From the NCBI RefSeq assembly GCF_018390635.1, contig NZ_JAHBGE010000042.1:1-64000 (forward strand): a stretch of 64,000 nucleotides of DNA, written 5' to 3'. The notes beneath the pieces are model-generated. The model did not search any database and was not told where the DNA came from. It saw only the letters and a list, made by a program, of their open reading frames with translations. How positions within the stretch are numbered: position 1 is the stretch's first letter; each line of letters begins with the position of its first letter. This DNA is from Ancylobacter lacus (GTDB taxonomy: Bacteria; Pseudomonadota; Alphaproteobacteria; Rhizobiales; Xanthobacteraceae). This document shows, in pieces, positions 197 to 32,341 of the stretch. The position numbers and the translations under genes are program-made.

Positions 197-1147
197 TACG
201 CCTTTTTCAAGGGCGCCTGCACACGCGGGATCTACGACAATATGAAAACCGCCGTGGAGACGATCTTCGTCGGCCGTGAGCGCGCCTACAACAGGCGCTT
301 CCTCCAGATGTGCGGGCACTACCTCGTCGATCCCGTGGCCTGCACGCCGGCGTCGGGCTGGGAGAAGGGGCAGGTCGAGAACCAGGTAGGGCTGGTGCGC
401 GAGCGCTTCTTCACACCACGCCTGCGGGTGAAGAGCTACGAGGAGCTGAACGCCTGGCTGCTCGACAGGACGATCGCCTTCGCCAAGGCGCACCGCCATC
501 CGGACCTGCGCGACAGGACGGTTTGGGAGGTGTTCGAGGGAGAGCGGCCGAGCCAGGTTCCCTATCGCGGCCGCTTCGACGGCTTCCACGCGGCGCCCGT
601 CTCGGTATCGAAGACCTGTCTCGTGCGCTTCGACAACAACCGCTACTCTGTCGCCGCCGGAGCCGTCGGGCGCCCGGCAGAGATCCGCGCTTATGCCGAT
701 AGGATCGAGATCCGGCAGGAGGGACGGATCGTCGGCGAGCATCCGCGCTGCTTCGGGCGGGACCAGACGATCTACGATCCCTGGCATTATGTGCCGGTCC
801 TGGCGAGGAAGCCCGGCGCTCTTCGCAACGGAGCGCCGTTCAAGGACTGGGTCCTGCCCGCACACCTGGATCGCGTGCGCCGCAAGCTCGGCACCACGCC
901 CGATGGCGGGCGCCAGATGGTCAACATCCTCACCGCGGTGCTGAGCGACGGCCTGCCTGCCGTGGAGGCCGCGTGTTCGGAGGCGCTCGGCGAAGGCGTC
1001 CACTCCGCCGACGTCATCCTCAACATCCTGGCCAGAGCCCGCGAGCCGGCACGCACGATGACCATCATGACCCCGGACGCGCTGCGACTTCGCCACGAGC
1101 CGGCGGCGGACTGTGCACGCTACGACAACCTCAGGAGAGCACTGTGA
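197..1147 (+). pseudogene. istA: IS21-family transposase IstA, C-terminal fragment
   Basis: The open frame starts at 197, just after an in-frame TAG at 194-196, and has no start codon of its own. The first residues include GIYDNMKTAV, which lies inside the DDE catalytic core of IstA, and GWEKGQVENQVG carries the conserved Glu region. About 316 residues remain of a protein usually near 500, so the helix-turn-helix and the first catalytic Asp are lost. The remaining C-terminal part is typical of IstA. Its TGA overlaps the istB start by one base (TGATG), the normal IS21 arrangement. The element cannot encode a full transposase and is probably immobile unless helped in trans. The junction with the integrase remnant at about 170-197 marks the break. 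Confidence 0.88.
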
Positions 1148-1875
1148 TGGAACGCTCCGAGATCCTCGGCGCCATGGGCGAGCTGAAGCTCTACGGCATG
1201 AAGGCGGCCTTCGACGAGATCATCTCCACGGCCGTGAAGCGTCAGCATGAGCCGAGCCGTGTCGTCGGCGATCTTCTCCAGGCGGATATCTCCGAAAAGC
1301 AGGCGCGCTCGATCAAATACCAGATCACGATCGCCAAGCTGCTGCTCGCCCGCGACGTCGACGGCTTCGTGTTCGACGACACGCCGATCAACGAGACGCT
1401 GGTGCGCGATCTCGCCTCCGGCAACTTCATCGCCCATCAGCGCAATGCCGTTCTGATCGGCGGCACGGGAACCGGCAAGACGCATCTGGCGATCGCCATC
1501 GCCCGGGCCTGCATTCATGCCGGTGCCCGGGGACGCTTCTTCAACGTCGTCGATCTCGTCAACAAGCTCGAGGCGGAAGGGCGAGCGGGCCGCCAGGGCC
1601 GCATGGCGGACTATCTCACTCGAATGGACTTCATCGTCCTCGACGAACTCGGCTATCTGCCCTTCGCCCAGTCCGGCGGCCAGCTCCTGTTCCACCTGAT
1701 CAGCCGGCTCTACGAGCAGACCTCGGTGATCGTCACCACGAACCTGGCCTTCGGTGAATGGCCCTCGGTCTTCGGCGACGCCAAAATGACCACCGCGCTC
1801 CTCGACCGCCTGACCCACCACTGCGATATCGTCGAGACCGGAAACGAGAGCTGGCGCTTCAAGAACCGCCTTTGA
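1147..1875 (+). CDS. istB: IS21-family helper ATPase IstB
   Basis: IstB is the AAA+ transposition helper that works with IstA on target DNA. The 242-residue product shows Walker [12 protein letters not shown], Walker [13 protein letters not shown], the conserved [11 protein letters not shown] stretch and the C-terminal [12 protein letters not shown] block, so it looks complete. The ATG at 1147 is chosen because it overlaps the istA stop (TGATG) and gives the usual family N-terminus, [15 protein letters not shown]. Longer in-frame starts upstream lie inside istA and are not credible. With IstA truncated, the protein has no functional partner in this copy. Confidence 0.95.
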
Positions 1876-13351: not shown

Positions 13352-13532
13352 ATCGGCGGGGCCGTGGGCAGCCGTGGCTCTACTTGAGGGTGACCAAGCG
13401 GAATATCTGATCTTCGTGGTGGGAGCTGACCCTTCGTTAGATAAACGGTAGAATTGATGCCGATCAAGGAGCCTGCCTCGTCTCCTCCCTAGCCTGATGT
13501 TGCGTTCAGGCGCTTGCCGGTGGGAGGAAACC

Positions 13533-14225
13533 ATGCGCGTCCACGAGATCATGAGCTATCCCGTCATAACCGTGACGCCGGACGACACGCTGGTCGCGGT
13601 CGCGGAGAAGCTGGTGCGCCATCGCATCAGCGCGGCCCCCGTCGTCGATCCGGCCGGTCACGTCGTCGGTATCGTCAGCGAGGGCGACCTGCTGCACCGC
13701 GCCGAGACCCGCACCGAGCGCCGCCGTTCCTGGTGGCTCGAGCTGTTCACCAGCGGCGAGACACTGGCGCAGGACTACGTCAAGTCCCATGGCCGGCTGG
13801 CGAAGGACGTGATGTCCCGGCGGGTGCTGAGCGTGCATCCCGATTCCAGCCTCGCCGACGTCGCGGACCTGCTCGATCGGCGCGGCATCAAGCGGGTTCC
13901 CGTTCTGGACGGGGGCAAGCTGGTGGGAATCATCAGCCGGGCCGATCTCGTTCGCGCCTTCGTGGCGGCCAAGACGGGACGGAAGGGGCCGGAAGCCGCG
14001 CGTTCCGACGCGGATATCCAGATCGACCTCGACGCCGCGCTGCAGCGCGAGGCCTGGGCCAGCCCGCTGACGGTGGTCACCGCGGTGCAGGATGGCGTGG
14101 TGCAACTGCTCGGCCTCATCCGCTCGGCGGATGAGCGCGACGCCCTCGTTCTGCTGGCTGGCAACGTGCCGGGCGTCCGCCGGGTGGAGGACCGTCTCCA
14201 GTTTCGCGCCTTCGCCGAGATCTGA
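13533..14225 (+). CDS. CBS-pair and BON domain protein
   Basis: ATG 13533 follows GGGAGGA (13521-13527). Two CBS domains come first: about residues 7-60 (MSYPVITVTPDDTLVAVAEKL to VGIVSEGDLL) and 90-145 (MSRRVLSVHPDSSLADVADLL to VGIISRADLVRA). A BON domain follows at about 155-228 (DADIQIDLDAALQREAW, VVQLLGLIRSADERDAL, GVRRVEDRL). Such proteins are thought to sense adenylates through the CBS pair, and many are upregulated under low oxygen or stationary phase. Its position near the cbb3 and fnr genes is consistent with that, but no FNR box is visible upstream. The target is unknown. Confidence 0.9.
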   Translation: MRVHEIMSYPVITVTPDDTLVAVAEKLVRHRISAAPVVDPAGHVVGIVSEGDLLHRAETRTERRRSWWLELFTSGETLAQDYVKSHGRLAKDVMSRRVLSVHPDSSLADVADLLDRRGIKRVPVLDGGKLVGIISRADLVRAFVAAKTGRKGPEAARSDADIQIDLDAALQREAWASPLTVVTAVQDGVVQLLGLIRSADERDALVLLAGNVPGVRRVEDRLQFRAFAEI

Positions 14226-14235
14226 TGGCGCCCTG

Positions 14236-14261
14236 GCGCCCGAACCCGGAGGGTCGGGCGC
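14236..14261. terminator. Hairpin between convergent CBS-BON and alcohol dehydrogenase genes
   Basis: GCGCCCGA (14236-14243) pairs with TCGGGCGC (14254-14261) around a short inner CCC/GGG stem. It lies in the 45-base gap between two converging genes, where a bidirectional terminator is expected. There is no T run, so it may be rho-assisted. Confidence 0.5.
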
Positions 14262-14270
14262 TACCTGCCG

Positions 14271-15266
14271 TCAGCCGGTCATTCCCGGCACGAGGACCGC
14301 GGCGCCCTGCAGCCGTCCGGCGCGCAGATCCGCCAGCGCCTCGTTGGCCCGCGCCAGCGGATAGCGCGTCGTTTCCATCTTCAGGCCGATCTGCGGGGCG
14401 AGGGCGAGGAACTCGGCGCCGTCGCGGCGGGTGAGATTGGCGACCGAGAGCACCTGACGTTCACCCCACAGGATGCGGTAGGGGAAGGCGGGAATGTCGC
14501 TCATGTGGATGCCGCCGCACACCACCCGTCCGCCCTTGCGCACCGCCCGCAGTGCCGCAGGAACGAGCGCGCCCACCGGGGCGAAGATCAGCGCCGCGTC
14601 GAGCGTCTCCGGCGTCGGCTCGTCGGAGCCGCCCGCCCATGTCGCGCCGAGGCTGCGGGCGAAATCCTGCGTGGCCGTGTCGCCGGGGCGGGTGAAGGCG
14701 AAGACGCGGCGTCCCTGCCAGCGGCACACCTGCGCGATGATGTGCGCGGCGGCACCAAATCCGTAGAGGCCGATCGTCCGCCCTTCCCCGGCCATGGAGA
14801 GGCACCGCCAGCCGATCAGCCCGGCGCAGAGCAGCGGCGCCAGCGCCACCGCATCGGCCTGTTCCGCCATGGGAAATGCAAAGCGGGCATCCGCCACGGT
14901 GTGGGTGGCAAAGCCGCCATCGCGCGTGAAACCGGTGAAGACCGGGGAATCGCAGAGATTCTCGCGCTCTTCGGCGCAGTACGGGCACTGGCCGCAGCTA
15001 TGCCCGAGCCATGGCACGCCGACGCGCTGGCCGGGTCTGAGTCCGGTAACGCCGGGCCCAAGGGCCTCGATGCGGCCCACGATCTCGTGCCCGGGGATGA
15101 TGGGCAGCATTGGGTCGGGCAGGTCGCCGTCGACCACGTGCAGGTCGGTTCGGCAGACCGCGCAGGCCTCCACCTTCAGGCGGATTTCACCGGGCCCGGG
15201 CACCGGGTCCGGGCGGGTTTCCGCCCGCAGCGGCGTGCCCAGAGCATGCAGCACCATAGCGTCCAT
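14271..15266 (-). CDS. Zinc-dependent alcohol dehydrogenase
   Basis: An MDR-family zinc alcohol dehydrogenase of 331 residues. Catalytic zinc ligands are Cys in CAVCRTD and the GHEIVGRIEALG stretch. The structural zinc site is the four-cysteine cluster in CGQCPYCAEERENLC. The nucleotide-binding loop is GLYGFGAAAH, slightly unlike the usual GxGGxG. The ATG at 15266 is preferred because GGAGAG lies 6 bases upstream of it on the coding strand. It interconverts primary alcohols and aldehydes with NAD(P). A degenerate FNR-like site lies 55-68 bases upstream of the start, which would suit an enzyme used at low oxygen, and the cbb3 operon reads away on the other side. Confidence 0.92.
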   Translation of the reverse strand: MDAMVLHALGTPLRAETRPDPVPGPGEIRLKVEACAVCRTDLHVVDGDLPDPMLPIIPGHEIVGRIEALGPGVTGLRPGQRVGVPWLGHSCGQCPYCAEERENLCDSPVFTGFTRDGGFATHTVADARFAFPMAEQADAVALAPLLCAGLIGWRCLSMAGEGRTIGLYGFGAAAHIIAQVCRWQGRRVFAFTRPGDTATQDFARSLGATWAGGSDEPTPETLDAALIFAPVGALVPAALRAVRKGGRVVCGGIHMSDIPAFPYRILWGERQVLSVANLTRRDGAEFLALAPQIGLKMETTRYPLARANEALADLRAGRLQGAAVLVPGMTG

Positions 15267-15320
15267 AGCGTCTCTCCGCACCATGTGCGGCACAGAATGC
15301 GCGCGCCGCGGCGCCGTCGC

Positions 15321-15417: not shown

Positions 15418-15431
15418 TTGATTTCAATCAA
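15418..15431. promoter_or_regulatory. FNR/FixK box upstream of ccoNOQP
   Basis: TTGATTTCAATCAA is a perfect TTGAT-N4-ATCAA palindrome, the binding site of FNR, FnrN and FixK-type activators. It lies 79 bases upstream of the ccoN start. An FnrN-type regulator is encoded at 28933-29676, so activation of cbb3 oxidase at low oxygen is expected. Confidence 0.93.
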
Positions 15432-15509
15432 TGAGGCGAGAGGCAAGGTTCCCTAGGGGTTTTCCAGGACACACAGCGCCGCGGCGCGCGCTTGCTCCTG
15501 GAGAGCGGA

Positions 15510-17204
15510 ATGCAGACAGAGCTGAGCCTGGGTCAACCCGACCCCGCAGCCAAGGGACCGGCGGGTGGTCCCCAGAAGAGCATGACCTATGGGGAGGGCG
15601 GCCTCGCCTTCCTGTTCGCCATGCTGGCGCTCGGGGCGCTGGTGGTGGCCTCGGGCGCCGAAAGCCAGGCTTATGCCTTCCACGCCTATCTCTCGGCGCT
15701 GGCGAGCATCGTCTGCGTCTTCGCCATTCTCAACCGCTATGTCGACCGTCCGGCCGCCCGGCCGGCCCTCGAGATCGACGGCAAGCCGAACTACAATTTC
15801 GGCCCGGTCAAGTTCGCGACCATCGCGGCGATGGTCTGGGGCATCGCCGGCTTTCTGGTCGGCGTGATTATCGCCTTCCAGCTTGCCTTTCCGGTGTTGA
15901 ACCTCGACCTGCCGTGGACGGCCTTCGGCCGGCTGCGCCCGCTCCACACCTCGGCGGTGATCTTCGCCTTCGGCGGCAACGTGCTGATCGCTACCTCTTT
16001 CTACGTCGTGCAGCGCACCTGCCGCGCGCGGCTGGTGGGCGATCTGGCGCCGTGGTTCGTTGTGCTCGGCTACAACTTCTTCATCGTCATTGCCGGCACC
16101 GGCTATCTGCTCGGCATCACCCAGGGCAAGGAATACGCCGAGCCGGAATGGTACGCCGACCTGTGGCTGACCATCGTCTGGGTGACCTATTTCTGCGTCT
16201 TCATCGGCACGATCTGGCGCCGCAAGGAGCCGCACATCTATGTCGCCAACTGGTTCTATCTCGCCTTCATCGTGACCATCGCGGTGCTGCACCTCGGCAA
16301 CAACGCCACGGTGCCGGTCTCGGTGTTCTCGCCCAAATCCTACATCGTCTGGTCCGGCGTTCAGGACGCGATGGTGCAGTGGTGGTACGGCCACAACGCG
16401 GTGGGCTTCTTCCTCACCGCCGGCTTCCTCGCCATCATGTACTACTTCATCCCGAAGCGGGCCGACCGCCCGGTCTACAGCTACCGGCTCTCGATCATCC
16501 ATTTCTGGGCGCTGATCTTCCTCTACATCTGGGCCGGTCCCCACCACCTGCACTACACCGCGCTGCCGGACTGGGCACAGACGCTGGGCATGACCTTCTC
16601 GATCATGCTGTGGATGCCCTCCTGGGGCGGCATGATCAACGGCCTGATGACCCTCTCGGGCGCCTGGGACAAGCTGCGCACCGACCCGGTGCTGCGCCTG
16701 ATGGTGGTGTCGGTCGCCTTCTACGGCATGTCGACCTTCGAGGGTCCGCTGATGTCGGTGAAGTCGGTGAACTCGCTGAGCCACTACACCGACTGGACCA
16801 TCGGCCACGTCCACTCCGGCGCGCTCGGCTGGGTCGCCTACATCTCGTTCGGCGCCATCTACTGCCTGGTGCCGTGGCTGTGGAACAAGCGCGAGCTGTA
16901 TTCGCTCAAGCTGGTCAACTGGCACTTCTGGATTTCGACCATCGGCATCGTCTTCTACATCTCGGCGATGTGGGTGGCGGGCATCCTGCAGGGGCTGATG
17001 TGGCGGGCCTACACCTCGCTCGGCTTTCTCGAATACTCCTTCATCGAGACGGTCGAGGCGATGCACCCCTTCTATGTCATCCGTGCGCTGGGCGGCGTGC
17101 TCTTCCTGGTCGGCGCCCTGCTGATGGCTTTCAACATCTACATGACCATCCGTGAGCCGGAGGCCGCCTCGGCCGCCACTCCTTCCCTCGTTCCGGCAGA
17201 GTGA
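15510..17204 (+). CDS. ccoN: Cytochrome c oxidase cbb3-type subunit I, CcoN
   Basis: The catalytic subunit of the high-affinity cbb3 oxidase, holding heme b and the heme b3-CuB centre in the inner membrane. The 564-residue product has about 12 membrane segments. His ligands are visible in [48 protein letters not shown] and [11 protein letters not shown]. The ATG at 15510 is preceded by GGAGAG at 15500-15505; an upstream in-frame start at 15492 lies before that ribosome site. It is the first gene of ccoNOQP, 12 bases before ccoO, and sits behind a perfect FNR box. Confidence 0.97.
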
Positions 17205-26046: not shown

Positions 26047-26211
26047 TCATCCATGCGCGGATATGAGGGTACGTGCGGCCAAAAGTCGATCGAAGGCGCC
26101 CGAGGTCTCGACCTCGTCCAGCACGAAGAACGAGGTGATGAAATAGCCGAGGGTGATGGCCGCAATCGCGGCCACCGCAACAATGAGCATCAGGCGGGCG
26201 GAAGGCGTCAT
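26047..26211 (-). CDS. Small single-pass membrane protein, unknown function
   Basis: A 54-residue reading frame starting MTPSARLMLIVAVAAIAAIT, with a membrane segment over residues 7-30, then DEVETSGAFDRLLAARTLIS. It fills the gap between ndh and the histidine kinase, and starts 66 bases upstream of ndh on the same strand, so the two may be co-transcribed. Codon use looks like that of real genes here. No family is recognised. A role beside NDH-2 is only a positional guess. Confidence 0.5.
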   Translation of the reverse strand: MTPSARLMLIVAVAAIAAITLGYFITSFFVLDEVETSGAFDRLLAARTLISAHG

Positions 26212-26391: not shown

Positions 26392-27981
26392 ATGGAACAG
26401 TCGGAAAGGCTCGCCGCCTCGCTCTCCGAAGAGGGACGCTATCGCCTGCTGGTCGAGGCGGTGGTGGACTATGCCATCTACATGCTCGACCCCGCCGGCA
26501 TCGTGACGAGCTGGAACCCGGGCGCCGAGCGGGTGAAGGGCTATGCCGCCTCGGAGATCATCGGGCAGCATTTCTCCCGCTTCTACACCGAGGAGGATCG
26601 CGCCGCCGGCCTGCCCGCGAAGGCGCTGGAGACGGCCCGCACCGAGGGCAAGTTCGAGAGCGAGAACTGGCGGGTGCGTAAGGACGGCTCCCGTTTCTGG
26701 GCCTATGTGGTGATCGATCCGATCCGGGCGCCCGATGGCGGCATCGTCGGCTTTGCCAAGGTGACGCGCGATCTGACCGAGCGGCGGGACGCCCAATTGG
26801 TGCTGGAGCGTACCCGCGAGGCGCTGGTGCAGTCGCAGAAGATGGACGCGCTGGGCCAGCTCACGGGTGGCATCGCCCATGACTTCAACAATCTGCTGAT
26901 GGCCGTGCTCGGCAGTCTCGAATTGATGCGCAAGCGTCTGCCGGATGACCCCAAGCTCCTCGCCTTGCATGAGAATGCGGTGAAGGGCGCCGAGCGCGGA
27001 CGCGCCCTGACCAACCGGATGCTTGCTTTTGCGCGACGCAAGGAAGCGGTGGCGGAGGCTGTGTCGGTTCCCGCGCTGGTCCGCGGCATGACCGAGCTGA
27101 TCCAGCGCTCGCTCGGGCCCGCCTACGACATCGAGCTGCGCTTTCCCCTTGTCGACCGGCCGGTGCTCTCGGATGCGAACCAGCTCGAGATGGCCTTGCT
27201 CAACCTCGTGGTGAATGCGCGCGATGCCATGTACGATGGCGGGCGTATCGTGATCGCGCTCCGGGAGGAGGCGGTGACCGGGCCGGACGACCGCCGCCTG
27301 CAGCCGGGGTCCTATCTCTGCCTCAGCGTCTCCGATACCGGCATCGGCATGGACGAGGAGACCCTGCGGCGGGCGGTGGAGCCGTTTTTCACCACCAAGG
27401 GCATCGGCAAGGGCACCGGCCTCGGCCTTTCGATGGTTCATGGCATCGCCGAGCGATCGGGCGGGCGATTCATGCTCCGCAGCCGTGCCGGCGAGGGTAC
27501 CGTCGCCGAACTGTGGTTGCCTGCCGCCGACCGGGCGGCGCTCGACGAGGAGGCACGGCCGGCGCCGCAACCCTCCGCACCGGCGGGGCTGGTGGTGCTT
27601 GCGGTGGACGATGATCCGCTGGTCCTCACCAACACCGTCGCCATGCTGGAGGATATGGGCCATGCGGCCCTTGCGGCCGAATCGGGCGCCGAGGCGCTCG
27701 ACCTGCTCCGCCGCACCTCCGGCATCGACGTCGTGGTGACGGATCAGGCGATGCCGCACATGACCGGGCTGCAGCTGGCGGCCGAGATCGCCAGACATTG
27801 GCCCGATCTGCCGGTGCTGCTGGCGACGGGCTACATGCCCGACCCCGACGGCGTGCCGCTCGACCTGCCCGTGCTCGAGAAGCCGTTCACCGAGGCCGAT
27901 CTGGCGGCGCGACTCGGCGCGCTGGTGCCGCCCCGTTCGGAACGGCTGATCAGCTTTGCCGGCCGGGTGCGACGGGGCTGA
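26392..27981 (+). CDS. PAS hybrid histidine kinase with receiver domain
   Basis: A cytoplasmic 529-residue sensor. Order: PAS domain (about 15-135; [37 protein letters not shown]), HisKA dimerisation helix with phospho-His in [11 protein letters not shown], ATPase with N box [10 protein letters not shown]1 SDTGIGM, F box [17 protein letters not shown], then a receiver domain (about 405-515) with VDDDP, phospho-acceptor Asp in VVVTDQAMP and LEKPF. No membrane segments. Kinases of this build answer to redox, light or energy signals. The ATG at 26392 (after GGAAGGACAC) begins the homologous part. No response regulator with a DNA-binding domain is adjacent. Confidence 0.92.
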
Positions 27982-27984
27982 TGG

Positions 27985-28647
27985 CTAGGCGGCGGTGAGG
28001 TACGGGCGGTAGAGCCGCAGGTCCTCGACGAAGCGTTGGTACTCGCGTTCCTTCGACGCCCGGTCGGGCAGGTGCAGCAGATGGTAGGGTGCACCGTCAC
28101 CAGCGCGGCCGGCTGCTGGTTTCCCCTGCTGATGGGCTGGCCGCGTGAGGAGCCCGCCGCGACGGCTCGGCCGAGCACCGCCCGCGCCGCCGTGGCGACG
28201 AGCGCGACCACGAGCCGGGGGGCGACGAGCGCCATCTCCTCCAGCAGCCATGGGTTGCAGGCGCGGATTTCACCGGTTGTCGGCTTTTGATGCAGACGCC
28301 GCTTGCCACGGGGGACGAATTTGAAGTGCTTCACCGCATTTGTGACGTACGCCCGCGCCCGATCGAGCCGGCTTCGCCAGGGCCCGATCGAAAAGAAGGC
28401 CGGCCGGCCCGATGAAGGGACGGCCGGCCAGGTCTTCCTGATCGCCCGGCTGCTCGCCGACAAACAGGAGGGACGCCCTCTCAGGCCCTTCGCCGAAGAC
28501 GGTCTGGGTTGCCGGGGCCCAGAGAGGGCGGGCCCGGCAGGCTCGTGCTTCGGCCCGCAGCCCGGCGAGCGTGCGGCTCTGCGGCTGCGCCGCGGCCTCC
28601 TGCTCGTCGGTGCGCGATGTGCGTTCGTGCTCGGCCGACACCTTCAC
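27985..28647 (-). pseudogene. udgX: UdgX-type uracil-DNA glycosylase, broken by two frameshifts
   Basis: Three pieces in different frames join into one UdgX-like protein. The first has TQTVFGEGPERASLLFVGEQ then PGDQEDLAGRPFIGPAG. The second, after a shift near 28368-28373, has YVTNAVKHFKFVPRGKRRLHQ, the family hallmark loop whose His links covalently to uracil-derived sites. The third, after loss of one base in a C run at 28087-28089, has HLLHLPDRASKEREYQRF and ends at 27985. In the N-terminal iron-sulfur motif, CRARPLW shows Arg where the second Cys is expected. Two shifts plus a lost cluster ligand argue for a true pseudogene rather than a sequencing error. It converges on the histidine kinase with 3 bases between. 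Confidence 0.82.
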
Positions 28648-28723: not shown

Positions 28724-28819
28724 TCAGGTTGAGCGATGGTCGACCCAGGCGAGGGTCGCGGCGAAGGCAATGAAGGCGAACACGACGCCGGTGAGGGTGA
28801 CGGCAGTCTCGAGGGGCAT
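28724..28819 (-). CDS. 31-residue single-pass membrane peptide under an FNR box
   Basis: Encodes MPLETAVTLTGVVFAFIAFA then ATLAWVDHRST: one hydrophobic helix with a short charged tail. A GGGAGA ribosome site lies 5 bases upstream of the ATG. A perfect FNR/FixK palindrome is centred 61 bases upstream of the start codon, on the correct side, and no other gene could use it in that direction before this one. The size resembles accessory peptides of terminal oxidases, but no family assignment is made. Confidence 0.65.
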   Translation of the reverse strand: MPLETAVTLTGVVFAFIAFAATLAWVDHRST

Positions 28820-28873
28820 GGCGATCTCCCAGGATTGAATGCCGCAGATGACGCCTCCGCCGCTTTCGTCGCC

Positions 28874-28887
28874 TTGATCACGATCAA
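28874..28887. promoter_or_regulatory. Second perfect FNR/FixK box, upstream of the 31-residue peptide
   Basis: TTGATCACGATCAA matches TTGAT-N4-ATCAA at all ten positions. It lies between the end of the fnr-type gene (28933) and the start of the small peptide gene (28819), both on the minus strand. The peptide is therefore the obvious target. Confidence 0.88.
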
Positions 28888-28932: not shown

Positions 28933-29676
28933 TCATACCGGCAGCCCGGCCAGCGCCGTGAGGCCGGGGCGGTCGCATATTTCCACCCGATGCGCATCGG
29001 CGAGCTGGATGAGGCCGCGTGTCTTCAGCGCCGAGAAGCTGCGGCTCACCGTTTCGATCGTGAGGCCGAGATAGTCGGCGATGTCGGTGCGGGTCATCGG
29101 CAGGGCCAGCGGCGTCGCGGGCTGGCCGTTCTCCACCGCCCGGTCGGAGAGGCCGAGGAGGAAGCGGGCGAGCTTCTCGTTCGGGGTCAGCCGGCCGAGC
29201 ATGAGCAGATTGCCGCGCGCCTCGAGCAGCGCCTTGCGGGTGAGTTCATGGAGCCGGTCGCGCAGGCGCGGGTGCTGCTCCATGAGCCGGTTCATTTCGG
29301 GAACCGGGAAGGAGCATAACCGGCAGGCGGTGACCGCTTCGGCGGCCTGGGTGTGGACGTCTTCGCCCGAGAGCCCCAGATAGTCACCGGGCGTCACGAA
29401 GCCGGCGATCTGCCGCCGCCCGTCCGGCAGCGAGACCGATAGCCTGAGCATGCCGGAGGTGAGCGTATAGGCCCGGCTGCGCAGATCGCCTTGCTCGAAC
29501 AGGAGCTGATTGGGAGCAAGCGTGACCGTGCTCATGATGGTGGTGAGGATGCCGGTCTCCTCCGGGGCGAGGCCGGCGCAGACCGCGCGTGACTTCACCC
29601 CGCAGTCGGCACAGGCGCCCTGTGCCTGCCGCGTGCCGTTCAGGGGGAAGGGAATCATGTTCGATCGCACCTGCAT
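28933..29676 (-). CDS. FnrN-type oxygen-sensing Crp/Fnr regulator
   Basis: A 247-residue Crp/Fnr protein with the cysteines needed for an oxygen-labile [4Fe-4S] cluster: Cys 22, 25 and 33 at the N-terminus (CADCGVKSRAVC) and Cys 118 or 121 in ACRLCSF. The spacing is that of alphaproteobacterial FnrN rather than E. coli FNR. A cyclic-nucleotide-like beta barrel spans about 50-140, and the C-terminal winged helix has the recognition helix IETVSRSFSALKTRG (Glu, Ser and Arg as in FNR), which reads TTGAT half-sites. Two perfect target boxes lie in this window (15418, 28874). An ATG at 29658 is an alternative start that keeps all cysteines. It faces phosphoketolase divergently. Confidence 0.93.
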   Translation of the reverse strand: MQVRSNMIPFPLNGTRQAQGACADCGVKSRAVCAGLAPEETGILTTIMSTVTLAPNQLLFEQGDLRSRAYTLTSGMLRLSVSLPDGRRQIAGFVTPGDYLGLSGEDVHTQAAEAVTACRLCSFPVPEMNRLMEQHPRLRDRLHELTRKALLEARGNLLMLGRLTPNEKLARFLLGLSDRAVENGQPATPLALPMTRTDIADYLGLTIETVSRSFSALKTRGLIQLADAHRVEICDRPGLTALAGLPV

Positions 29677-29938: not shown

Positions 29939-32341
29939 ATGACCGGAACCGACACCGATACCGCCTTCACACCCGCCGTGCCGCTGGAAGCGGAGGAAGC
30001 CCGGCTGATGAACGCCTGGTGGCGCGCGGCGAATTACCTTTCGGTCGGGCAGATTTATCTGCTCGACAATCCGCTGCTGCGCGAGCCGCTGGCGATGGAG
30101 CATGTGAAGCCGCGCCTGCTGGGTCATTGGGGCACGACACCGGGCCTGAACTTCATCTACGTCCATCTCAACCGCATCATCCGCCGCACCGGTGCGAACG
30201 TCCTGTTCATCGCCGGTCCCGGCCACGGTGCCCCGGGCGTCGTCGCCTCCACCTATCTGGAGGGGACCTATAGCGAGGTCTACCCCGACATCTCCGCCGA
30301 CGAGGAAGGGCTGCGCCGGCTGTTCCGCCAGTTTTCCTTTCCCGGCGGCATTCCCAGCCACGCCGCGCCGGAAACCCCCGGCTCCATCCACGAAGGCGGA
30401 GAACTTGGCTATTCCCTCGCTCATGCTTATGGCGCGGTGCTCGACAATCCCGATCTGATCGCGGCCTGCGTGGTGGGCGACGGCGAGGCCGAGACCGGAC
30501 CGCTGGCGACGAGCTGGCACGCCAACAAATTCCTGAACCCGGTCAGCGATGGCACGGTGCTGCCGATCCTGCACCTCAATGGCTACAAGATCGCCAACCC
30601 CACCGTGCTGTCGCGGATCGACCCGGAGGAGCTGGAAGCGCTCTTCATCGGGTATGGCCATGACCCCATCTTCGTCGAGGGCGACGACCCCGCCGTCATG
30701 CATGGGCGGATGGCCGCGGCCTTCGACCTCGCCTTCGGCCGCATCGCCGAAATCCGCCGGCTCGCGCGTGAGGCCGAGGCGGCCGGCGAGCCGCTGCCGC
30801 GCCCGCGCTGGCCCATGATCATCCTGCGCAGCCCCAAGGGCTGGACCGGGCCGAAGACCGTCGACGGCAAGAAGGCCGAAGGCTTCTGGCGCTCGCACCA
30901 GGTGCCGTTCGCCGACATGGCCAAGCCCGGCCATCTGGAACTGCTGGAGGACTGGCTGAAGAGCTACCGGATCGACGAACTGTTCGACGCCGACGGCCGG
31001 TTGCTGCCGGAGATCGCGGCGATGGCACCCGCCGGCGGCCTGCGCATGAGCGCCAATCCCCACGCCAATGGCGGGGTGCTGCGTCGGCCGCTCCGGCTGC
31101 CGGACTTCACCCGCTACGCGATCGAGGTTCCGCACCCCGGCGCGGTGGAGGCGGAGTCCACCTATGCCATGGGCCAGTTCCTCCGCGACGTGATGAAGGA
31201 GAACGCGGCGAGCCGGAATTTCCGCGTGTTCGGGCCGGATGAGACCGCCTCCAACCGTCTGCAGGCGCTGTTCGAGGTCACCGGCCGGGCCTGGGACGCG
31301 GCCACCCTGCCGGAGGACGACCACCTCGCCCGCGACGGGCGGGTGATGGAGATACTGTCCGAGCATCTGTGCCAGGGCTGGTGCGAGGGCTATCTCCTCA
31401 CCGGGCGGCATGCCCTGTTCTCCTGCTACGAAGCCTTCATCCACATCGTCGATTCGATGTTCAACCAGCACGCCAAATGGCTGAAGTCGGCCCGCGACGT
31501 GCCGTGGCGCATGCCCATCGCCTCGCTGAACTACCTCTTGACCTCCCATGTCTGGCGGCAGGACCACAATGGCTTCAGCCACCAGGACCCCGGCTTCATC
31601 GACCATGTGGTGAACAAGAAGGCCGACATCGTGCGGGTTTACCTGCCGCCGGACGCCAACACGCTGCTGCACGTGACGGACCATTGCCTGCGCAGCTGGA
31701 ACCGGGTGAACGTCATCGTCGCCGGCAAGCAGCCGGCGCCGCAATGGCTCGACATGGACGCCGCGGTGAAGCATTGCGAAACCGGCATCGGCATCTGGGA
31801 GTGGGCCAGCACCGACGGGGGCGGCGAGCCGGATGTGGTGCTGGCCTGCGCCGGGGACGTGCCGACGCTGGAGACGCTGGCGGCCGCCGACCTGCTGCGG
31901 GGCTATTTCCCCGATCTGAAGGTGCGGGTGGTCAATGTGGTCGACCTGATGACCCTGCAGCCGAGCAGCGAGCACCCGCACGGCCTCTCCGACCGTGAAT
32001 TCGACGCCCTTTTCACCACCGACAAGCCGGTGATCTTCGCCTATCACGGCTATCCCTGGCTCATCCACCGGCTGGCCTACCGGCGGACGAACCATGGGAA
32101 CATGCATGTGCGCGGCTATGTCGAGGAGGGTTCGACGACGACCCCGTTCGACATGGTGGTGCGCAACCGGCTCGACCGCTTCCACCTCGTCGCCGACGTC
32201 GTCGACCGGGTGCCGAAGCTCGCCACGGTCGGGGCCTATGCCCGGCAGGCGATCCGCGACAAGCTGGTCGAGCACGAGCGCTACATCCGGGCGCACGGCG
32301 TCGACCTGCCGGAGGTGCGCGACTGGACGTGGCCGCGCTGA
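29939..32341 (+). CDS. xfp: Xylulose-5-phosphate/fructose-6-phosphate phosphoketolase
   Basis: A thiamine-diphosphate enzyme that splits xylulose 5-phosphate or fructose 6-phosphate with phosphate to acetyl phosphate and an aldose phosphate. The 800-residue length is standard. Visible signatures: the N-terminal [27 protein letters not shown], the phosphoketolase signature [15 protein letters not shown] (about residues 152-166), ThDP-binding [13 protein letters not shown], and late [20 protein letters not shown]. The start has GGAGCC 5 bases upstream. No acetate kinase or phosphotransacetylase is adjacent. The 262-base gap to the divergent fnr-type gene holds a weak TTGAT half-site at 29766 but no full FNR box. 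Confidence 0.96.

Follow-up and report, generated by a model that had tools for sequence, protein, structure and literature searches.

CydX, a single helix of about 30 residues, is a small subunit of cytochrome bd, and CcoQ/FixQ and CcoS are small single-helix proteins of the cbb3 oxidase system. At class II FNR promoters the FNR box is centred at −41.5. The 36-residue CcoM of Pseudomonas stutzeri is described, in the available portion of the source (PMC10433244), as a cbb3 subunit essential for adapting to oxygen limitation; the proteome in the same portion has the cbb3 subunits more abundant aerobically and not under oxygen limitation, a pattern that warns against taking such a regulon as a measure of oxidase supply. 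Core FNR, FixK and DNR regulons have been predicted for 87 alphaproteobacteria (Dufour et al. 2010, PMC2908626), and the FNR list, as far as it is available, names cbb3 subunits, fnr, oxygen-independent coproporphyrinogen oxidase, UspA and OmpW (PMC2908626).

A sequence-only reading of the 64,000-nucleotide stretch of DNA analysed here (the window) had pointed to a 31-codon frame with a ribosome site, set about 61 bases downstream of a perfect TTGAT-N4-ATCAA site and next to an FnrN-type gene, and each of these elements was found in place (Table 1). The frame reads on the minus strand from an ATG at 28819 to a stop codon at 28724-28726, and the centre of the box lies 61.5 bases upstream of the A of the ATG. 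The neighbouring gene encodes a CRP/FNR protein whose top NCBIfam model is FnrL, at 152 bits and under the model's cut-off of 300. Downstream of the peptide, overlapping short frames (about 27831..28647, minus strand) have, by eye, the appearance of a disrupted uracil-DNA glycosylase-type gene.

Table 1. Features of the peptide locus, with the cbb3 operon of the window for comparison.
Feature	Position	Strand	Basis
31-codon gene, single-pass membrane peptide MPLETAVTLTGVVFAFIAFAATLAWVDHRST	28724..28819	-	Frame, family relatives, helix prediction
Predicted 20-nt leader	28820..28839	-	Inferred: start 41.5 bases past the box centre, with the −10 alignment
Shine-Dalgarno sequence GGGAG	28826..28830	-	Sequence; 6 bases (28825-28820) ahead of the ATG
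Predicted −10 element TCATCT, poor match	28846..28851	-	Position from the family promoter alignment
Perfect FNR-type box, TTGATCGTGATCAA on minus, TTGATCACGATCAA on plus	28874..28887	-	Pattern scan
FNR-type regulator gene, directly upstream of the peptide, presumed regulator	28933..29676	-	Model search
Perfect box ahead of cbb3 oxidase operon (comparison)	15418..15431	+	Pattern scan
ccoN, first cbb3 operon gene (comparison)	15492..17204	+	ccoN model match at 15789-17177

The window contains four FNR-type boxes at no more than one mismatch, against a mean of 0.23 and a maximum of 2 in shuffled sequences. Three of them are perfect (13454, 15418 and 28874). The cbb3 operon with a perfect box, to which the peptide had been linked, is indeed present; its box is not "the other" perfect one, as had been stated, because a third at 13454 precedes a CBS-domain gene (product assigned by eye). 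CBS-domain and alcohol dehydrogenase-like genes (by eye, 13454..15293) and a phosphoketolase gene (model match, 29939..32341) share the window, and all three product types occur in the predicted FixK list, in the part of it available (PMC2908626). Elsewhere in the window, a 54-codon frame with one hydrophobic stretch (MTPSARLMLIVAVAAIAAITLGYFITSFFVLDEVETSGAFDRLLAARTLISAHG, 26047..26211, minus strand) lies beside an NADH dehydrogenase-like gene, and two frames at the left end (242..1875, plus strand) resemble, by eye, an IS21-type transposase pair.

Relatives of the peptide were sought by protein sequence alone, and the box played no part in the searches. Among related genomes, 35 of 61 gave a match at a deliberately loose threshold (E <= 10); 29 of the 30 loci returned from these 38 matches, the window's own included, are recognisably related peptides, and the single unrelated one (L030) was rejected as a family member. 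Profile matches were obtained in 72 of 297 genomes of the order (E <= 0.05) and, with a rebuilt profile, in 85 of 385 genomes of the class (E <= 0.1), the weak tails of both lists being mostly chance and left out of the relatives. As the class search scored at most 19 candidates per genome, absences of the peptide in the class are unreliable. In the phylum draw 35 of 398 genomes matched (E <= 0.02), and the convincing matches (short frame, mostly with the box) fall in the window's class; many matches above about E 0.003 in the class and phylum lists sit in long frames. Outside the class, one locus was inspected in each of 8 of the 13 matching genomes, and none combined a box with a short family-like frame. 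A plasmid search with a 43-residue relative gave no match.

Family members are mostly 29-46 residues long, and no library or structure that we searched describes them. The window peptide has no significant Pfam or NCBIfam match; the best values for members (E 0.023, 0.0041 and 0.0082, from tables that print no cut-offs) are scattered over unrelated models touching at most 4 of 47 members each, and PDB searches returned only insignificant matches (E 0.63 and above). Literature searches (CC0, CC BY and CC BY-SA papers, part of the results) yielded no paper on the peptide, and it is not mentioned in the available portions of PMC6515984, PMC5082802 and PMC10117765. The regulon lists of PMC2908626, in their available part, hold no entry identifiable as the peptide, though one FNR and three FixK "hypothetical protein" entries might be it. 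Conservation, on which the sequence-only reading had staked its proposal, is borne out by a frame that recurs across many alphaproteobacterial genera. Judged by these comparisons of sequence, the window peptide belongs to a family of alphaproteobacterial micropeptides that so far has no name.

Because the searches used only the protein, the box serves as an independent test of the family. We scored the pattern TTGA(T/C)N4(A/G/C)(T/G)CAA with its centre 50 to 80 bases ahead of the start codon; the pattern was fixed after the sequences had been seen, and its background rate comes from scoring that same pattern on the same loci. Sixty-five of the 85 distinct loci from the three protein searches carry the box at −80 to −50, where 0.2 are expected. 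The counts by search are 27/30 for the related genomes, 23/26 for new loci of the order and 15/29 for the class, whose 29 loci include several non-members; a further 3 of the 29 have a box farther out, at −81 to −103. Among the 20 returned loci that lack a box at −80 to −50, 14 are short frames (<=70 residues).

A set of 81 regions was chosen for closer study, made up of the window, 20 of the 38 related-genome matches, 40 of the 78 listed order matches (picked by best score, then short frame) and 20 of the 29 other class loci. Sixteen of the 81, the window among them, come from the window's genus. The box is present in 68 of the 81 regions (0.1 expected), representing 26 of 35 genera and 17 of 19 families, and adding any TTG-N8-CAA at −85 to −50 raises this to 75 regions and 32 genera, with 0.5 regions expected from the loose pattern. 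The class regions were picked after their promoters had been seen, and the nine left out comprise eight lacking a box and one whose box is at −81; this choice favours the box, for which reason all loci were recounted as returned, giving the 65 of 85 above. Many genus mates of the window carry TTGAC-N4-CGCAA rather than the perfect palindrome. Control of the peptide gene by FNR/FixK-type regulators, which the sequence-only reading had proposed, is strongly supported by this distribution.

The arrangement of the promoter points the same way. When 74 promoters were aligned on the box, an A was found 30.5 bases past its centre in 42 and a T 34.5 bases past it in 53. If the box centre is placed at −41.5, the conserved A and T become positions −11 and −7 of a −10 element, with a predicted transcription start some 20 bases ahead of the ATG, so that the family promoters have a predicted −10 element at class II spacing; the full TA-N3-T form appears in only 11 of the 74 at each of the two best offsets. 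A G stands 8.5 bases past the box centre, just outside the half-site, in 69 of the 74. A scan for consensus sigma-70 promoters found nothing at the window copy, and this result and the poor −10 element there are compatible with an activator-dependent site, yet are no evidence for one.

One alternative is that the box drives a small RNA in which the frame is incidental; the conservation of box and spacing at loci whose peptide has diverged would suit it. The coding sequence argues otherwise. In 22 same-genus genes of 43 codons, a set that excludes the shorter window copy and whose compared pairs are not independent, dN/dS is about 0.38, indicating purifying selection, and pairwise differences at codon positions 1, 2 and 3 number 2282, 1656 and 3768, the third position varying most. 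Relatives across the class were, moreover, found through the protein sequence itself. We regard the small RNA as highly improbable, and the gene as very probably real, conserved and under FNR-type control, judging from frames and promoters.

The one clear membrane helix claimed for the peptide is confirmed by both predictions made: its best 19-residue hydropathy is 2.18 (residues 6-24), and AlphaFold2, run on the single sequence, gives one helix over residues 2-30 (pLDDT 95.9). Each of the 47 aligned members reaches a hydropathy of 1.79 or more over some 19-residue stretch. Net charge is negative in the N-terminal flank of 42 of the 47 and positive in the C-terminal flank of 38 (neutral in that of the window copy), a family charge pattern that, with the positive-inside rule, suggests an N-out orientation. 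Along the helix, Phe is invariant at position 19 and positions 16 (Phe) and 23 (Leu) are almost invariant, with A20, A24 and W/Y/F25 also frequent. The product is almost certainly a one-helix peptide of the inner membrane.

Size and a single hydrophobic helix are also what a type I toxin-like peptide would present, and 1 of the 47 members touches the PepG1 model at a non-significant E of 0.2. Most carriers, however, have one match per genome in the order and class searches, and the box that is conserved is of the activator type; a toxin thus seems a very remote prospect. A broader alternative is a general low-oxygen membrane effector, acting on a protease, a transporter, a kinase or the membrane itself in the manner reported for small stress peptides such as YohP. 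The peptide is kept in genomes with differing oxidase sets and in scattered neighbourhoods, as such an effector might be, whereas the conserved aromatic and small residues of the helix suggest a specific binding face and not an effect on the bulk membrane. We give this explanation appreciable weight, somewhat short of an even chance.

Recurrence of the frame and box beside fnr, which had been proposed as a check in related genomes, was observed only in part: frame and box recur, but only 12 of the 80 regions other than the window (three of them in genome G206) have an FNR-type gene directly upstream on the same strand. In one region (L168) such a gene lies directly downstream on the other strand, and in 67 of the 80 there is none beside the peptide. 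Genes for cbb3 occur in the fetched stretch of 5 regions (L033, L113, L118, L124 and L168) and are absent from that of the other 75, and they follow the peptide within 3 kb in only two genomes of the 80 regions, G206 and G251, both of genus g33 (6-9 Mb genomes) in the window's family. The order in G206 is FNR-type gene, box and peptide, followed by ccoN directly (L124) or past one frame (L113), and in G251 (L118) a hemN-like gene and one frame separate the peptide from ccoN. G206 has three copies of the unit of FNR-type gene, box and peptide (L113, L124 and L126), two of which front cbb3 operons. The neighbourhoods are otherwise scattered, which indicates that box and peptide form a unit and not a fixed operon member. 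A link to phosphoketolase was dropped, as only one of the 80 regions (L031) shares that gene with the window.

Whether the partner is cbb3 can be judged from the gene content of carriers. The gene ccoN is present in 16 of 19 class-draw genomes with peptide and box, compared with 156 of all 385 genomes drawn (Fisher p 1.2e-4). This enrichment is confounded by the size and completeness of the genomes, some carriers being incomplete drafts, and by the presence of FNR. In the order, 34 of the 72 matching genomes were tested, of which 25 have ccoN and 9 lack a match at E <= 1e-60; the six genomes tested from family f35 are all among these nine. Among class carriers ccoN is present in 17 of 22 and absent from 5; two of them, G455 and G641 (the latter 86% complete), match neither ccoN nor cydA.

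A strict cbb3 subunit, an alphaproteobacterial CcoM that binds CcoN/CcoP and is useless without them, would account for this enrichment, for the cbb3 genes found near the peptide in a few regions and for a CcoM-like layout of an own box ahead of a short one-helix frame. The ccoN-less carriers make such a subunit unlikely for the family as a whole, and we consider it improbable, the more so as no relationship to CcoM emerged. Homology had been suspected by eye from a W-x-D near the C-terminal end and an A-F in mid-helix, and it failed the profile, hhalign and shuffle comparisons: hhalign of the family against CcoM gave a probability of 9.9, indicating no homology, the family profile had no PDB match up to E 10, and the mean family score against the CcoM helix was reached by 29 of 200 shuffles of that helix. 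When the window peptide by itself was scored against CcoM, 70 of 2000 shuffles did as well, which is too weak a result for a pairing that had been picked by eye.

The likeness to CcoM is one of design. CcoM (PDB 5djq chain N) has 36 residues, one helix, an acidic residue near its N-terminus and a basic C-terminus, and the peptide family shares its approximate size, single transmembrane helix, charge pattern and promoter layout. CcoM also has its own FNR/ANR-type box, at −71 to −77 in 16 of 16 closest homologues (L215-L230), a count given without a background rate. In five remoter homologues (L231, L232 and L234-L236) a near-box ends in CAG or CAT and not CAA. The two differ in distribution: in the phylum draw of 398 genomes strong CcoM matches fall outside the window's class and convincing matches to the peptide family inside it, and the family occurs in genomes without ccoN, so it does not strictly co-occur with cbb3. 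That the peptide works like CcoM is plausible by analogy; that it is CcoM is unsupported.

The remaining small subunits compare less well. CydH/YnhF is likewise a single-helix oxygen reductase subunit of about 30 residues (29 in chain 6rko H), but the NCBIfam CydH model touches only 2 of the 47 members (best E 0.53), and no CydX model is among the listed Pfam and NCBIfam matches of members. Nor does the family co-occur with cytochrome bd as CydH or CydX would: cydA is matched in 12 of 21 class carriers and lacking in 9, and cytochrome bd was rejected as a general partner. The Pfam FixQ model touches 1 of the 47 (E 0.12), and the peptide differs from CcoQ/FixQ and CcoS also in the 75 of 80 regions without a cbb3 gene in the fetched stretch. 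The promoter type is the shared feature with the described alphaproteobacterial FNR/FixK regulons, which use the same type of box in the part of the regulon study available (PMC2908626).

Other heme-copper oxidases are present in most of the ccoN-less carriers searched for them. Subunit I was found in all seven searched of the nine such carriers in the order and in 4 of the 5 in the class. In one of these genomes (G146) there are nine box sites, of which one is that of the peptide, one lies at the start of an OmpW-like frame and at least five are inside frames. A perfect box there (L281, G146:C13:57559) precedes the likely ATG of a cyoA-like frame by about 65 bases, nearly the spacing seen at the peptide genes. 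Downstream of this frame come a COX1 gene and two more frames, an order like that of a cyoABCD operon; all these names but COX1 were assigned by eye. G177, likewise without ccoN, has no perfect box within 3 kb of its three COX1 genes.

The suggestion that the peptide is oxidase-associated therefore has a mixed outcome. The shared promoter type, ccoN downstream in two genomes, the ccoN enrichment and the CcoM parallel speak for it, and the order carriers without ccoN, with f35 throughout the six genomes tested, speak against it. A low-oxygen terminal oxidase is our leading guess for the partner, and a tentative one that we would put below an even chance.

Taken as a whole, the data are best explained, with a modest balance of probability in favour, by an FNR/FixK-controlled micropeptide that tunes a low-oxygen respiratory membrane protein. 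The peptide gene would form its own transcription unit under an FNR/FixK-type regulator, which at low oxygen would bind the box at about −41.5 and recruit RNA polymerase to the conserved −10 element as at class II promoters, giving, from the promoter alignment, a leader of about 20 bases. The product would insert as one helix, most likely with its acidic N-terminus outside and its C-terminus inside, as the family charge pattern suggests. Residues F16, F19, A20, L23 and W/Y/F25 may contact a larger membrane protein in the respiratory chain used at low oxygen, packing against it and so stabilising or tuning it, by analogy with what is thought for CcoM and the cbb3 oxidase of Pseudomonas. The leading candidate for this partner would be a terminal oxidase under the same regulator, cbb3 where it is present and another heme-copper oxidase in lineages without ccoN.

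A bolder version holds that a single ancient micropeptide of the alphaproteobacterial FNR regulon serves whatever oxygen reductase the regulator controls. In most lineages this would be cbb3, and after loss of cbb3 a heme-copper quinol oxidase; the helix would be a portable module for oxidases, evolving together with the regulator and not with one enzyme, and the gammaproteobacterial CcoM would be an independent solution to the same task. We think this version unlikely as it stands.

The micropeptide favoured here would matter beyond the window. Although one of the best-studied oxygen switches controls it, this conserved protein is missing from the Pfam and NCBIfam family libraries searched, its length of only about 30 residues being the probable reason, and the combined signature of promoter and peptide makes the family easy to find. 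If the peptide binds a terminal oxidase, it would fill a gap in what is described of low-oxygen respiration, both in rhizobia-like bacteria and in many other alphaproteobacteria; if it does not, it would be a new low-oxygen membrane effector. In either case, our findings suggest an overlooked small component of the low-oxygen machinery of alphaproteobacteria.
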